Shown one piece after another: positions 3,887 to 35,474 of a DNA stretch of 40,427 bases (position 1 is its first letter; each line of letters begins with the position of its first letter). The notes below the pieces were generated by a model. It saw nothing but the letters and a program-made list of their open reading frames with translations, had not been told where the DNA came from and ran no database searches. Both the position numbers and the translations under genes were made by a program. Source of the stretch: a virus; IMG/VR virus record IMGVR_UViG_3300023174_000324, positions 1-40,427 of that record. The stretch is one strand, 5' to 3'.

Positions 3887-4249
3887 ATGGCAACCAATAA
3901 CCCTAAATTAAAATTATTTGAGGATGACCCTCTTGTTAAGGTCCTTAAAAAAGAACATTATGACATTGTAGATCCATTCACGTACAATATAATTGATAAT
4001 GGGGCGGGATCAGATCCAACATTTGAAGCTACATTTTCTGCAGTAGTAGGAGATGACAATCCAGATGATGAAAATACAGATCCAATTACAAACATAGAAA
4101 AATTAGATGCTCCAAATCTTGAAGATATAACTTTAATAAAATCAGAAATATATTATGATCAAAAAAAGGTTCCACACATTAGATTTATTTTTAATGTTAA
4201 AAACCATGTTGGCGATGAAGTAATAGGTGCATATGGAAAAGGAGGATAG
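3887..4249 (+). CDS. hypothetical protein in tail module
   Basis: This 120-residue acidic soluble protein has an Asp/Pro-rich middle (residues 60-85). I do not recognise a family. It lies between the hub-like gene and a minor tail gene, and has its own predicted leaderless promoter. Its separate promoter inside a structural module suggests it may be needed at another time or amount than the flanking tail proteins. Its stop is one base from the next start, behind a strong AAAGGAGGA site that belongs to the next gene. Confidence 0.6.
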   Translation: MATNNPKLKLFEDDPLVKVLKKEHYDIVDPFTYNIIDNGAGSDPTFEATFSAVVGDDNPDDENTDPITNIEKLDAPNLEDITLIKSEIYYDQKKVPHIRFIFNVKNHVGDEVIGAYGKGG

Positions 4250-28584: not shown

Positions 28585-29070
28585 ATGGTAACAACAACTC
28601 TGGATTTTTTTAATGATCCATTTTTCATTGGCTTTGATCGCCAAATTAAAGATCTACAAAATATAAATAGAAATACATCAAACTATCCACCTCATAATAT
28701 CTCTAAGGTTACAGGCTCAGACGATATGTATGTTATTGAGCTTGCTTTAGCAGGATTTAATAAAGAGGACATTGAAGTAGAACAAGATAAAAATGTACTA
28801 ACAATTAAAGGTGCTTCTCATGAAGACCCTCTTAAAGAATATATTTATAAGGGAATTGGAGCACGTTCATTTGTTAAAACATTTTCGCTTGCAGAATACG
28901 TAAAGGTTAATTCTGTAATTATTTCAAACGGAATCTTAATGGTAGGACTAACTAAGTTCATTCCAGAAAGTGAAAGACCAGTTAAGTTTGATATTCATGA
29001 CTTTGATGAAATAGAAGGATTTGAAGATCTTAGAGATACTGAAGTAAAAACAAAAAGAACAAAGAAATAG
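28585..29070 (+). CDS. hsp20: Hsp20-type small heat-shock protein
   Basis: The 161-residue protein starts behind GAAAGGGG. Residues about 45-130 form an alpha-crystallin domain: YVIELALAGFNKEDIEVEQ, VLTIKGASHE, and the late GILMVGLTK, where GIL is the usual A-x-x-x-G-[I/V]-L-type strand. The tail is charged (EDLRDTEVKTKRTKK). Small heat-shock proteins hold unfolded proteins for refolding; phage versions have been proposed to aid virion assembly. It has an individual promoter with an unusual palindrome. Confidence 0.9.
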   Translation: MVTTTLDFFNDPFFIGFDRQIKDLQNINRNTSNYPPHNISKVTGSDDMYVIELALAGFNKEDIEVEQDKNVLTIKGASHEDPLKEYIYKGIGARSFVKTFSLAEYVKVNSVIISNGILMVGLTKFIPESERPVKFDIHDFDEIEGFEDLRDTEVKTKRTKK

Positions 29071-29437: not shown

Positions 29438-31402
29438 TTGACTAGAAAGTTAAGAATATTTTGCGCCTTCCTGCTTGCTACAGGTTGGCTTTTTGCTATA
29501 CCAGCTGATTCTAGCGGGGCAACATCAGAAATATCTGCTACAGTTTCAGAAGGAGAAGTGCTTACACTGTCTGCTCCATCTGGTTTTAAAATTGATCGTG
29601 TATTATTTGCCTCATATGGAACACCAGTAAATTATACAATTGGAAGATGTCATGCAATAAACTCTATATCTATTGTAGAGGCGGCTATCAAAAATGAATC
29701 ATTAACTATTTCAGCTACAAATGGTGTCTTTGGAGATCCATGCGGTGGAACACGTAAATCTTTGTCGGTTACATTATCAATTCAAGAATTACAAATATCT
29801 CCAGTTAACCCAACCTCAGAATTAATTACAATTGGTGCACCAAGAAATCTATCCGTAGTAGATGGATCAACATCAACAGTGCTATCTTGGGATTCTCCAA
29901 ATAGTGGCACAAGACAGCCAGAAAGATATGCAATTAGTTTTAACTGTGATAAATGCAATGGTTGGGGTATTGCTACAGGTAATGTTGGAGATTCTAATGC
30001 TTTAAATACAAATATAACTATTAGTCATTCGTTGCTTGAAAGTTTAATGCCAAGCGGAACAATATGGTCATTTCATATTAGATCAGATAATGATACATTA
30101 CATTTATACTCTGAGAATTCAAATGTAGTAACAATTAAAATAGGTAAAACTTCAGAAGAATTAGCTAAAGAACAATCTGTGATATTAGCAGAACAACAAA
30201 GATTAGCAGCAATTATTGCAGCAGAAAAAGCAAAACTTGAAGCAGAAGCTGCAGCAAAACTAGCAGCAGAATTAGCAGCTAAAGCAGAAGCAGATCGATT
30301 ATCTGCAATTGAAGCAGCAAAAGTACAAGCAGAAAAAGATAAGTTAGCAGCAGAAGCCGCAGCATTGGCTGAACAACAAAGATTAGCAGCAGAATCTGCT
30401 GCTAAGAAAGCAGAAGAAGATCGCATCGCTGCAGAATTGGCTGCTGCTAAAGCAGAAGAGGAAAGATTAGCAGCAGAAGCTGCTGCTAAGAAAGCAGAAG
30501 AAGATCGCATCGCTGCAGAATTGGCTGCTGCTAAAGCAGAAGAGGAAAGATTAGCAGCAGAAGCTGCTGCTAAGAAAGCAGAAGAAGATCGCATCGCTGC
30601 AGAATTGGCTGCTGCTAAAGCAGAAGAGGAAAGATTAGCAGCAGAAGCTGCTGCTAAGAAAGCAGAAGAAGAAGCTAAATTAGCAGAAGAGGCTAGACTA
30701 AAGTCTGAGGCGGAAGCAAAGGCAAAGGCAGAAGAAGATGCTAGACTTGAAGCAGAAAAAATTAAAGCGGAGCAAGAAAAATTAGCAGCTGAAAAAGCGG
30801 CAAAAGAAAAAGAAATAAAAGATCTAAAGGCTAAAGAAGATGCTCGTATAGCTGAAGAAAAAGCAATACAGGCAGAAAAAGACAAAGCTTTATCTGATGC
30901 ACAAAAAGCAGCAGAATCTGGTAAAGAATTAAATAAAGAAGAAAAAGCTGCAGTTGCAGAAATATTAATTGAAAAAGCATTAGAATCTGGTCAAACAATT
31001 ACTGCATCACAAATTGCATCCTCTGGTATTGAGTATAAAGATTTACCTCCAGATACACCAGTTGAAGTCAGAACTTCAGAAAGTGGTGAAGCATTAGTTA
31101 TTACTGCAGAAGTTGCAGCTAACGTAGCAATGGTAACAGATGCTGGAGCACTGTTAGACGCAGTATTTACAGACCCAGGAGCGGCACTACAAGCTCTTGG
31201 AAGCATTGGTGCAGATATGACACCAGGAGAAAGAGAAGAAGCAACAAAAATGGTTGTGGCTACAGTAGTAGCAACAGGTGCAGCAATGAATGCAGTTGCT
31301 GCAGCAACACCCACTGGAGGATCAACAAGAAATAATTCTGGAGGATCAAGTGGAGGAGGAGCTTCTAGCGAATCCAAGGGAGTAAGAAGGAGAAAACCAT
31401 GA
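29438..31402 (+). CDS. secreted SUEL-type lectin with long coiled coil
   Basis: The 654-residue protein starts at TTG, 7 bases after AGGAGA. Residues 1-28 are a signal peptide (basic head, FCAFLLATGWLFAI core). Residues about 36-116 match a galactose/rhamnose-binding (SUEL) lectin: FASYGTP, CHA with Cys71, and FGDPCGGTRKSL with Cys102, though most of the usual cysteines are absent. A fibronectin-like domain follows (LSVVDGSTSTVLSWDSP, about 133-232). Residues about 235-500 are an Ala/Glu/Lys coiled coil containing three identical 28-residue repeats. The C-terminal 150 residues end in a Gly/Ser linker and VRRRKP. It should be exported and bind sugars at the cell surface. Confidence 0.75.
   Translation: MTRKLRIFCAFLLATGWLFAIPADSSGATSEISATVSEGEVLTLSAPSGFKIDRVLFASYGTPVNYTIGRCHAINSISIVEAAIKNESLTISATNGVFGDPCGGTRKSLSVTLSIQELQISPVNPTSELITIGAPRNLSVVDGSTSTVLSWDSPNSGTRQPERYAISFNCDKCNGWGIATGNVGDSNALNTNITISHSLLESLMPSGTIWSFHIRSDNDTLHLYSENSNVVTIKIGKTSEELAKEQSVILAEQQRLAAIIAAEKAKLEAEAAAKLAAELAAKAEADRLSAIEAAKVQAEKDKLAAEAAALAEQQRLAAESAAKKAEEDRIAAELAAAKAEEERLAAEAAAKKAEEDRIAAELAAAKAEEERLAAEAAAKKAEEDRIAAELAAAKAEEERLAAEAAAKKAEEEAKLAEEARLKSEAEAKAKAEEDARLEAEKIKAEQEKLAAEKAAKEKEIKDLKAKEDARIAEEKAIQAEKDKALSDAQKAAESGKELNKEEKAAVAEILIEKALESGQTITASQIASSGIEYKDLPPDTPVEVRTSESGEALVITAEVAANVAMVTDAGALLDAVFTDPGAALQALGSIGADMTPGEREEATKMVVATVVATGAAMNAVAAATPTGGSTRNNSGGSSGGGASSESKGVRRRKP
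30404..30655 (+). repeat. three identical 84-bp in-frame tandem repeats
   Basis: Units at 30404-30487, 30488-30571 and 30572-30655 are identical by my reading, and a fourth starts and diverges after about 17 bases. Each encodes 28 residues starting KKAEEDRIAAEL, exactly four heptads, so copy changes keep frame and coiled-coil register. Confidence 0.92.
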
Positions 31403-32195: not shown

Positions 32196-32429
32196 ATGCT
32201 TTATCTTACACTCAAAGGTGTAGAGGTCTTTATAGAAAGATCTAAAACAAAAAGTCAAGAATCATATTGGGATAACTACGATTTACTAATATGGAAACAA
32301 AATCCAGGCGGCTTTACTAATCTAAAGGGAATGTTTAGAAAAGATCAGTGGGGCGTTACAGAAAGAATTGCTGTTAACGAACAAGGTATCTGGAAGCTGC
32401 CAAGCAAATATGTCAAACATTTTAAATGA
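32196..32429 (+). CDS. small hypothetical protein
   Basis: The 77-residue basic protein starts behind AGGAAAG. It is aromatic-rich (SYWDNYDLLIWKQNPGG, KDQWGVTERI) and probably all-beta. It may use the tRNA-Asn promoter by read-through. The whiB-like gene begins 20 bases before its end. No family recognised. Confidence 0.6.
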   Translation: MLYLTLKGVEVFIERSKTKSQESYWDNYDLLIWKQNPGGFTNLKGMFRKDQWGVTERIAVNEQGIWKLPSKYVKHFK

Positions 32430-32727
32430 ATTAGGTGTAGATGAAGATGATTTAGATTGGTTCCACCTTGGAATTTGTAGAGGTATGGATACAAATCTAT
32501 TTTATGATAAATATGAAGCCGATGTAAATATAGCAAAAAGTATTGATGAGGCTTGTTTTAGTTGTCCAGTATCAAAGATGTGTTATCAAGCTGGTGTAGA
32601 AAATGATGAGCAAGGAGTATGGGGAGGAATTTATTTAAATTCTGGATCCATTGATAAAACAAGAAATTTACACAAAACACCAGAAGTTTGGAAAAAGATT
32701 AGGATTAAAAATGGAATTTATAAATAA
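32410..32727 (+). CDS. whiB: WhiB-family iron-sulphur regulator
   Basis: Started at 32410 the protein has 105 residues. Cys23, Cys49, Cys52 and Cys58 (GIC, ACFSC, KMC) give the C-x25-C-x2-C-x5-C cluster-binding pattern, followed by GVWGG (residues 69-73) and a basic tail, the defining WhiB features. WhiB-like proteins bind a 4Fe-4S cluster and the housekeeping sigma factor, and are restricted to actinobacteria and their phages. It could retune host transcription or recognise phage promoters. An upstream in-frame start at 32368 lies inside the preceding gene. Confidence 0.9.
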   Translation: MSNILNELGVDEDDLDWFHLGICRGMDTNLFYDKYEADVNIAKSIDEACFSCPVSKMCYQAGVENDEQGVWGGIYLNSGSIDKTRNLHKTPEVWKKIRIKNGIYK

Positions 32728-33788: not shown

Positions 33789-33814
33789 ACTTTCGAATTT
33801 ATATTTAGTATACT
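33786..33814 (+). promoter_or_regulatory. promoter for the Ntn hydrolase (leaderless)
   Basis: TATACT (33809-33814) has a weak TAGACT -35 (33786-33791) at 17 bases. Six bases separate it from the ATG at 33821. Confidence 0.6.
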
Positions 33815-33820
33815 AGGATT

Positions 33821-34378
33821 ATGACCTGTATAGTAGCAATAGCTCAAAATGGTGTAGTCTATATGGCATCAGATCATGCCGCCTCAGATGATAAAACTGG
33901 TTGGATACTTGCTAGAAAAGAACCTAAAGTATTTAAAGTAGGACAATATGGAATTGCATTTACAGATTCATTTCGAATGGGACAAATTCTTCAATATTCA
34001 TGGACCCCACCAAAATATACTCCAACAAAAACTAACTCAGGATTAGATAAATTTATGAGAACTAAATTTATTGATTCTGTAAAGCAAGCATTTAAAGATA
34101 ACGGATATGGCTCTATTGGATCTTCATCAGAAGAAGACACAGGCGGAATTTTTATAGTTGGTGTATGCGGAAGAGTTTTTACAATTGATGAAGACTTTCA
34201 CGTAGGTGAAAATATTGTAAACTATATGGCGGAAGGAAGCGGCGGACAGATAGCCCTTGGTGCTTTATACGCTACAAAAAATCAAAAGAATCCACGCTTA
34301 CGCTTAAAAGCAGCATTAGAAGCAGCATCAGAATTTAATATGAGTGTATCTGCCCCCTATACATATATCCAAGTATAA
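33821..34378 (+). CDS. HslV/proteasome-beta-like Ntn hydrolase
   Basis: The 185-residue protein begins MTCIVAIAQNG. After removal of Met, Thr1 would be the nucleophile, and Asp17 (VYMASD) falls exactly at the catalytic position of HslV and proteasome beta subunits. A lysine in EPKVFKV (35 of the mature form) aligns with catalytic Lys33, given a two-residue insertion. GSGGQIALGALYA (about 145-157) is the conserved late motif. No propeptide is present, as in HslV. Family members are barrel proteases fed by an ATPase ring; no HslU or Mpa is encoded here, so a host unfoldase or independent peptidase action is needed. Confidence 0.85.
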   Translation: MTCIVAIAQNGVVYMASDHAASDDKTGWILARKEPKVFKVGQYGIAFTDSFRMGQILQYSWTPPKYTPTKTNSGLDKFMRTKFIDSVKQAFKDNGYGSIGSSSEEDTGGIFIVGVCGRVFTIDEDFHVGENIVNYMAEGSGGQIALGALYATKNQKNPRLRLKAALEAASEFNMSVSAPYTYIQV

Positions 34379-34966: not shown

Positions 34967-35185
34967 ATGGATAATAAATTAACAGTTCTTGAAGAAATAA
35001 TTAAAGAAATTGGTGAAGAGTTATATCAAAAGTGGTATAACGGTCTTGCAATTGAAGATAGAACAGAAGAAACTTCAAAAGCAATGTCAACAAATGCTGG
35101 AGAAACTGCAGTATGGGTTATTCAAACATTTATGAATAAGTTTAATGCAGCAGCAGAAGAATTAAAGCCTAATGATAGTAACTGA
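34967..35185 (+). CDS. hypothetical protein before thioredoxin
   Basis: The 72-residue acidic helical protein (LTVLEEIIKEIGEELYQKW, AVWVIQTFMNKFNAAAEEL) overlaps thioredoxin by 14 bases and is controlled by a promoter with an operator-like palindrome. No family recognised. Confidence 0.65.
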   Translation: MDNKLTVLEEIIKEIGEELYQKWYNGLAIEDRTEETSKAMSTNAGETAVWVIQTFMNKFNAAAEELKPNDSN

Positions 35186-35474
35186 TGAAAGCTTTAATGA
35201 AGTTATTACATCTAATGGTTTAGTTCTTATAGATTTTTGGGCGGAATGGTGTGGACCTTGTAAAAAAGTATCGCCAATTTTAGACGAGATATCAAAAGAA
35301 CATGGAATACTTGTTGGTAAATTAAATATTGATGATAATCCATTAAAAACTGTTGAATATTCAGTATCTTCTATACCTACTATGATTTTATTTGAAGATG
35401 GTGTTGCAATTAAAACAATTATTGGAGCAAAACCAAAGCATAAAATGCTTGAGGAGTTGTCAGAATGGTTTTAG
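35172..35474 (+). CDS. trxA: thioredoxin
   Basis: The 100-residue protein has the complete fold order with the redox-active WCGPC (Cys27, Cys30), the VLIDFWAEW strand, the SIPTMILFEDG cis-proline segment (near 68-78) and a C-terminal helix. It is a cytoplasmic dithiol reductant that could feed ribonucleotide reductase or act as a processivity partner, as host thioredoxin does for T7 polymerase. It overlaps both neighbours. Confidence 0.95.
   Translation: MIVTDESFNEVITSNGLVLIDFWAEWCGPCKKVSPILDEISKEHGILVGKLNIDDNPLKTVEYSVSSIPTMILFEDGVAIKTIIGAKPKHKMLEELSEWF

Follow-up and report, generated by a model that had tools for sequence, protein, structure and literature searches.

An AAH-type proteasome-like peptidase encoded by a clade of freshwater phages that probably infect Actinobacteria

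In 2021 Fuchs, Alva and Lupas described 22 new proteasome homologs, and two of the families in their survey, PPH and AAH, were known in phages (PMC8665760). AAH proteins were abundant in Actinobacteria and Alphaproteobacteria and also occurred in phages, and the authors stated that no Actinobacteria-specific phage encoding an AAH could be found (PMC8665760). The nearest relative of AAH with a solved structure is BPH (PDB 5ovs, 5ovt, 5ovu), which forms tetradecameric rings, has its start methionine removed so that Thr1 is exposed, binds epoxomicin covalently at Thr1 and has no known partner unfoldase; its authors had to account for a lack of activity toward model substrates (PMC5777263). AAH is catalogued in both bacteria and phages (PHROG 1040), and the proteasome-family proteins of phages are uncharacterized.

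Here we describe an AAH-type gene in a 40,427-nucleotide stretch of viral DNA (IMG/VR record IMGVR_UViG_3300023174_000324; hereafter, the window), whose features are collected in Table 1. What is new is the presence of AAH in a large, WhiB-bearing, Stanwilliamsviridae-related clade of freshwater phages that are probably actinophages, which fills the gap left by the 2021 survey. Hundreds of freshwater contigs, probably from actinophages, carry such a gene under strong purifying selection.

Table 1. Features of the peptidase gene and its surroundings in the window
Feature	Position	Strand	Evidence
Hsp20 small heat-shock protein, a proteostasis gene that precedes the peptidase by about 5 kb	28585..29070	+	
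WhiB-like regulator, actinophage marker	32368..32727	+	annotation
In-frame TAG stop, excludes an N-terminal propeptide	33806..33808	+	sequence
-10 hexamer TATACT; predicted to place the transcription start at the ATG or next to it	33809..33814	+	89/89 phage-clade relatives; window-wide enrichment p=3e-10
AAH-type proteasome-like (Ntn, threonine) peptidase, 185 aa	33821..34378	+	ATG start; profile, alignment, fold
Catalytic Thr1 codon (residue 2 before Met removal)	33824..33826	+	invariant except one Ser
Asp17 codon (residue 18)	33872..33874	+	invariant
Catalytic Lys codon, mature Lys35, equivalent of proteasome Lys33	33926..33928	+	invariant
Ala codon, column aligned with oxyanion Gly47 of the proteasome (HslV Gly45)	33956..33958	+	Gly in most relatives
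G-S-G motif, with the Ser corresponding to proteasome Ser129	34235..34243	+	sequence, alignment
Thioredoxin-like protein; its synteny with the peptidase is kept in most relatives	35172..35474	+	synteny

Catalytic residues, fold and family

The peptidase is a proteasome-family (Ntn) protein. PHROG 1040, "peptidase HslV family," matches it over its full length (E=3.2e-20), and its relatives comprise 198 phage records at ≥80% coverage and hundreds of sequences in IMG/VR, so the homology is far beyond chance, while the match to the Pfam Proteasome model is sub-threshold (15 bits, cut-off 22.4). Without its initiator methionine the protein begins T1-C-I-V; in this mature numbering D17 lies within "MASD" and Lys35 within "EPKVF," and the sequence "EGSGGQIALGA" occupies residues 138-148 of the peptidase. 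The original prediction had proposed a proteasome-type Ntn protease with Thr1, Asp17 and a lysine near residue 35, and had named the loss of Thr1 or Lys in close homologs as the observation that would count against it. The triad is intact and the lysine is Lys35; each of the three residues is present in 81/81 sequences (the query plus the 80 IMG/VR relatives closest to it), none having been lost. Conservation extends to distant phage loci, where Thr1 is found in 97 of 98 (the other has Ser) and Asp and Lys in all 98, and to cellular genome loci, where all three are present in 80/80. The median dN/dS relative to close relatives was 0.039, with dS near saturation, and by this comparison of sequences the gene is under strong purifying selection. 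Thr1 is very likely to be a chemically competent nucleophile. Of the second proteasome triad (Ser129/Asp166) only half is kept. The window has the Ser, although the family more often carries Cys there, and the Asp166 column shows no conservation.

The single-chain AlphaFold model of the peptidase (pLDDT 94.8, pTM 0.90) contains all four helices, H1, H2, H3 and H4, with an H2 of 19 residues (75-93). Its best matches among PDB folds were BPH (E 2e-11, TM 0.72-0.78), followed by HslV and then the β subunits of 20S proteasomes, and BPH was also the top match of a profile search against PDB sequences (E 9e-6). The model is a proteasome-like β fold with equivalents of Thr1, Asp17 and Lys33, and it is compact, having H1-H4 but neither large insertions nor an S12/H5 extension at the C-terminus when compared with the published description of AAH (PMC8665760). 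There is no propeptide, the start is conserved, and the cellular spread is mainly in Actinobacteria and Alphaproteobacteria (71 of the 80 cellular loci kept). Because of its fold, its length of 185 aa, the presence of both H1 and H2, BPH as nearest solved relative and this cellular distribution, we assign the peptidase to AAH, within group I (BPH/HslV-like), an assignment made by matching it to the published description. It shares with AAH/PHROG 1040 a subunit of about 180 aa, Thr1/Asp17/Lys, the lack of a propeptide, H1-H4, BPH as closest solved structure, an occurrence in Actinobacteria, Alphaproteobacteria and phages, and the absence of a partner unfoldase. The clade of the window phage differs from other AAH in being a separate branch (support 100) that is not nested in cellular actinobacterial AAH, in having two extra residues before the catalytic Lys and a longer, basic H1-H2 linker (15 residues with a net charge of +2, versus about -1 in cellular relatives), in its Ala at the oxyanion column, in its leaderless promoter and in its actinophage carrier, which was absent from the 2021 survey.

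How does the peptidase compare with the better known members of the family? With BPH it shares the best fold and profile match, the lack of an unfoldase and an exposure of Thr1 by Met removal (shown in BPH and presumed here), whereas identity is only 18-20% and the acidic pore loop of BPH is not found as such. HslV (ClpQ) is alike in fold and triad, at 17-20% identity, but its HslU-type AAA_2 partner is missing in the 10 long phage relatives. The name HslV in its strict sense, which the original prediction used, was rejected: BPH is nearer by both fold and profile, at 18-20% identity, the protein fits AAH, the HslV models NCBIfam TIGR03692 and NF003964 gave no match to the window protein at E up to 1, and no AAA_2 protein was found in 10 long relatives. 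PPH is likewise phage-encoded and proteasome-like (PMC8665760), but it has about 140 residues and lacks H2, whereas the peptidase has 185 residues and a 19-residue H2, and PPH was rejected on these grounds.

Connectase shows that Thr1 of a proteasome-family protein can ligate (PMC8665760), and the peptidase might similarly be a transpeptidase or ligase whose Thr1 acyl-enzyme joins proteins rather than degrading them. The lack of an unfoldase fits such a role, as does the unconserved Asp166 column, since Asp166 aids efficient proteolysis in proteasomes (PMC4792962). However, H1 and H2, missing from connectase, are both in the model, whereas the two helices that connectase inserts between S3 and S4 are not, so the protein falls outside the connectase class. 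The nearest solved relatives, BPH and HslV, form rings, and we regard ligation as quite improbable.

A 20S-type β subunit was also rejected. The score against the PrcB model TIGR03690 was 13.6 (cut-off 191.9), that against Pfam was below threshold as given above, and the window gave only one weak match, whereas a β subunit would need a partner α subunit. A further suggestion of the original prediction was that the phage protein could mix with host proteasome rings and poison them. In a broader form, it would exploit or interfere with host proteolysis by joining PrcB rings or by docking on one of the host's own AAA+ unfoldases, for instance Mpa. AAH-bearing actinobacterial genomes do have proteasome subunits as well, but identity to Mycobacterium tuberculosis PrcB is just 14-16%, BPH is nearer, and phages that infect Gammaproteobacteria and Firmicutes, groups that generally lack a 20S proteasome, have relatives of the peptidase too. 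Such interference now seems highly improbable. In the literature searched there was no report on a proteasome in Nanopelagicales, and a PADLOC defense search gave no match for the peptidase.

Start of the gene and its expression

That the protein has no propeptide and a leaderless start had been proposed from the sequence, and both proposals stood up. A TAG lies in frame 15 nt upstream of the ATG with no start codon between them, and therefore there is no propeptide. The hexamer TATACT sits 6 nt before the ATG. All phage-clade copies (89/89) have TATACT or TACAAT at a distance of 6-7 nt from the ATG, whereas none of the distant relatives does (0/71); in 57 of the latter a Shine-Dalgarno-like motif takes its place. 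The same spacing is enriched across the window: a -10 hexamer is so placed at 10 of 52 gene starts but at just 7 of 1050 ATGs elsewhere (odds ratio 35, p=3e-10). Since the hexamer is kept in all 89 copies and its spacing is enriched at the gene starts of the window, the peptidase mRNA is very probably leaderless. The ten starts with a hexamer exactly 6 nt before the ATG are at window positions 3887, 23791, 27027, 31872, 33821, 34393, 34967, 36834, 38572 and 39795, several of them with an AAATG/TGN extension, and it appears from this pattern that many genes of the phage are expressed from single-gene leaderless promoters. Met-Thr is a good substrate of methionine aminopeptidase, and removal of the initiator methionine from the peptidase is highly likely to occur.

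Elsewhere among the relatives, the annotated start of the peptidase of Moorella phage MTATph1 (L082:4001-4558) is at 4043, 14 codons downstream of a TTG that gives the catalytic Thr, and that gene has probably been annotated too short. In Vibrio phages 2.058.O (L089:1498-1995) and V6Aob (L098:1283-1771) the peptidase has a gene for a polypeptide deformylase no more than two genes away, and the deformylase might help to expose the N-terminal Thr.

The oxyanion column

Gly47 of the proteasome has been described as a strictly conserved oxyanion-hole residue (PMC4792962). In the column of proteasome Gly47 and HslV Gly45, position 46, the window and all 80 close relatives have Ala. Conservation of Gly46 was judged on 18 reference phages and 76 genome loci, and all of them have Gly (18/18 and 76/76); the IMG/VR loci L100-L179 had been chosen by a pattern requiring Gly at position 46 and were left out of the count for that reason. 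The Ala form is present in at least 119 contigs, and the 80 inspected are all relatives of the query, one of them at 55% identity. A relative 80% identical to the query carries Gly, and Gly and Ala alternate on the tree and within the phage clade, with at least three changes when counted by eye.

Does this substitution mean that the protein is a catalytically weakened or dead paralog that acts as a binding protein? The Ala and the unconserved Asp166 column would both fit such a protein, but Thr1, Asp17 and Lys are invariant, dN/dS is about 0.04, and the BPH of T. denitrificans has Ala at the same aligned column and is still labeled by epoxomicin at Thr1 (PMC5777263). In BPH itself, the oxyanion role was assigned by its authors to Gly-50, which lies three residues further along (PMC5777263). 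In view of the BPH Ala and the alternation of Gly and Ala, a dead enzyme was dropped as the main reading of Ala46, and we hold a paralog with impaired catalysis to be rather improbable. Ala46 is best read as a tolerated variant in an aligned column, the oxyanion residue of BPH having been placed elsewhere.

The phage, its relatives and possible functions of the peptidase

WhiB has been used as an actinophage marker (PMC6802176), and we mark the phage of the window as an actinophage because it encodes a WhiB-like regulator; it and its freshwater clade probably infect Actinobacteria. Its DNA polymerase is 57% identical to those of Streptomyces phages BillNye and Circinus, and the window shares tail-to-replication synteny with BillNye, a member of the Stanwilliamsviridae. 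No close relative was present in the phage collection, the relatives being IMG/VR contigs of up to 116 kb, in nearly all of which WhiB, thioredoxin and other neighbors are syntenic. Matches of the phage tRNAs were weak and spread over the phylum, and no host was called from them. In the tree, the clade of the window forms a separate, well supported branch outside cellular actinobacterial AAH, and because it is not nested there the tree does not indicate a recent capture from a cellular actinobacterial AAH gene. The window also encodes a 654-aa protein (29438-31402) whose N-terminal stretch is signal-like; it has a long repeat region of Ala, Glu and Lys, and its match to a SUEL-type lectin domain falls just under the cut-off.

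What might the peptidase do? The original prediction of a phage-encoded enzyme without a phage unfoldase agrees with our searches, as AAA_2 was found in 0/10 long relatives (104-116 kb), whose sub-threshold AAA matches include a small P-loop kinase-like protein. Given the rings of BPH, its binding of epoxomicin and the lack of an unfoldase, an ATP-independent barrel peptidase can be proposed by analogy. An mRNA starting at or beside the AUG would be translated leaderless, host methionine aminopeptidase would remove Met and expose Thr1, and Lys35 and Asp17 would activate it; the subunits would most likely form a BPH-like double ring, which may hydrolyze, in the infected cell, either polypeptides that are short or unfolded or a single particular protein of the host or the phage. 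Hydrolysis would proceed without ATP and without a dedicated unfoldase, and the peptidase would not be the capsid-maturation protease. No AAH protein is known to be active. We consider it likely that the peptidase assembles into rings, and peptide hydrolysis is likely to be its natural reaction; on balance we favor a role inside the cell over one in the virion, and, by analogy with BPH, a self-assembling, ATP-independent threonine peptidase of AAH type acting in the infected cell is our preferred, probable reading.

A role in the virion had been raised earlier in the form of virion-protein processing, and the peptidase could be a morphogenesis protease that cleaves head, portal or scaffold proteins during assembly. 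The record OX376640.1 (L383), titled LanE43-AprE7, contains a more distant homolog with the same residues directly after the portal gene, and a cultured phage of "Ca. Planktophila" goes by that name (PMC10202952). Of 71 distant relatives in phages or proviruses, 26 have TerL or portal within 5 kb of the gene, several of them right next to it, and ten of these calls were confirmed with PHROGs. However, this enrichment is slight (26 seen versus about 18.6 expected, P about 0.03 under a crude model), large phages carry the peptidase in nucleotide-metabolism regions, and in the window its surroundings include WhiB and thioredoxin, with no head genes found nearby. Moreover, each of the 10 long relatives has a gene for a conventional head-maturation protease like that of the Stanwilliamsviridae (45-49% identical to BillNye gp209), and therefore the peptidase is not needed for classical capsid maturation. 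For the clade of the window we regard a morphogenesis protease as unlikely.

A narrower version of the intracellular peptidase is conceivable, though speculative and in our estimate unlikely: a leaderless phage mini-proteasome without an ATPase partner that eliminates a single particular host protein, such as a regulator or a defense factor, during infection of freshwater Actinobacteria. If true, it would become the first characterized viral protease of the proteasome family. Since a cultured "Ca. Planktophila" phage carries a distant homolog, the role of a proteasome-like enzyme that lacks an unfoldase is testable in a real phage-host pair. OX376640.1 is filed as "Caudovirales sp. ct2KA10" without annotation, which makes its proteasome homolog invisible in databases. 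Aeromonas phage 2L372X (L096) has two adjacent genes annotated as HslV family peptidase, and this pair possibly forms a two-subunit particle.

Among cellular AAH we found no convincing conserved neighbors, as the clusters obtained consisted of overlapping AAH reading frames and common SDR enzymes. Nineteen of the 24 AAH-bearing plasmid records (which include NC_010627.1, NZ_CP032696.1 and NC_020061.1) belong to Rhizobium, Sinorhizobium, Mesorhizobium and Paraburkholderia and measure 440-950 kb, many of them coming from legumes, and in R. jaguaris the AAH gene is about 8 kb from nifH and nodD2. Many Frankia copies are also present among the cellular relatives. The legume-associated plasmids, the proximity to nifH and nodD2 and the Frankia copies suggest that cellular AAH is linked to nitrogen-fixing root symbionts. 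In one Rhizobium group, comprising two strains of R. lusitanum, R. leucaenae and R. freirei (L217, L219, L221, L222), an in-frame TAG follows AAH residue 38 in all four sequences, and AAH is apparently a nonsense allele there.
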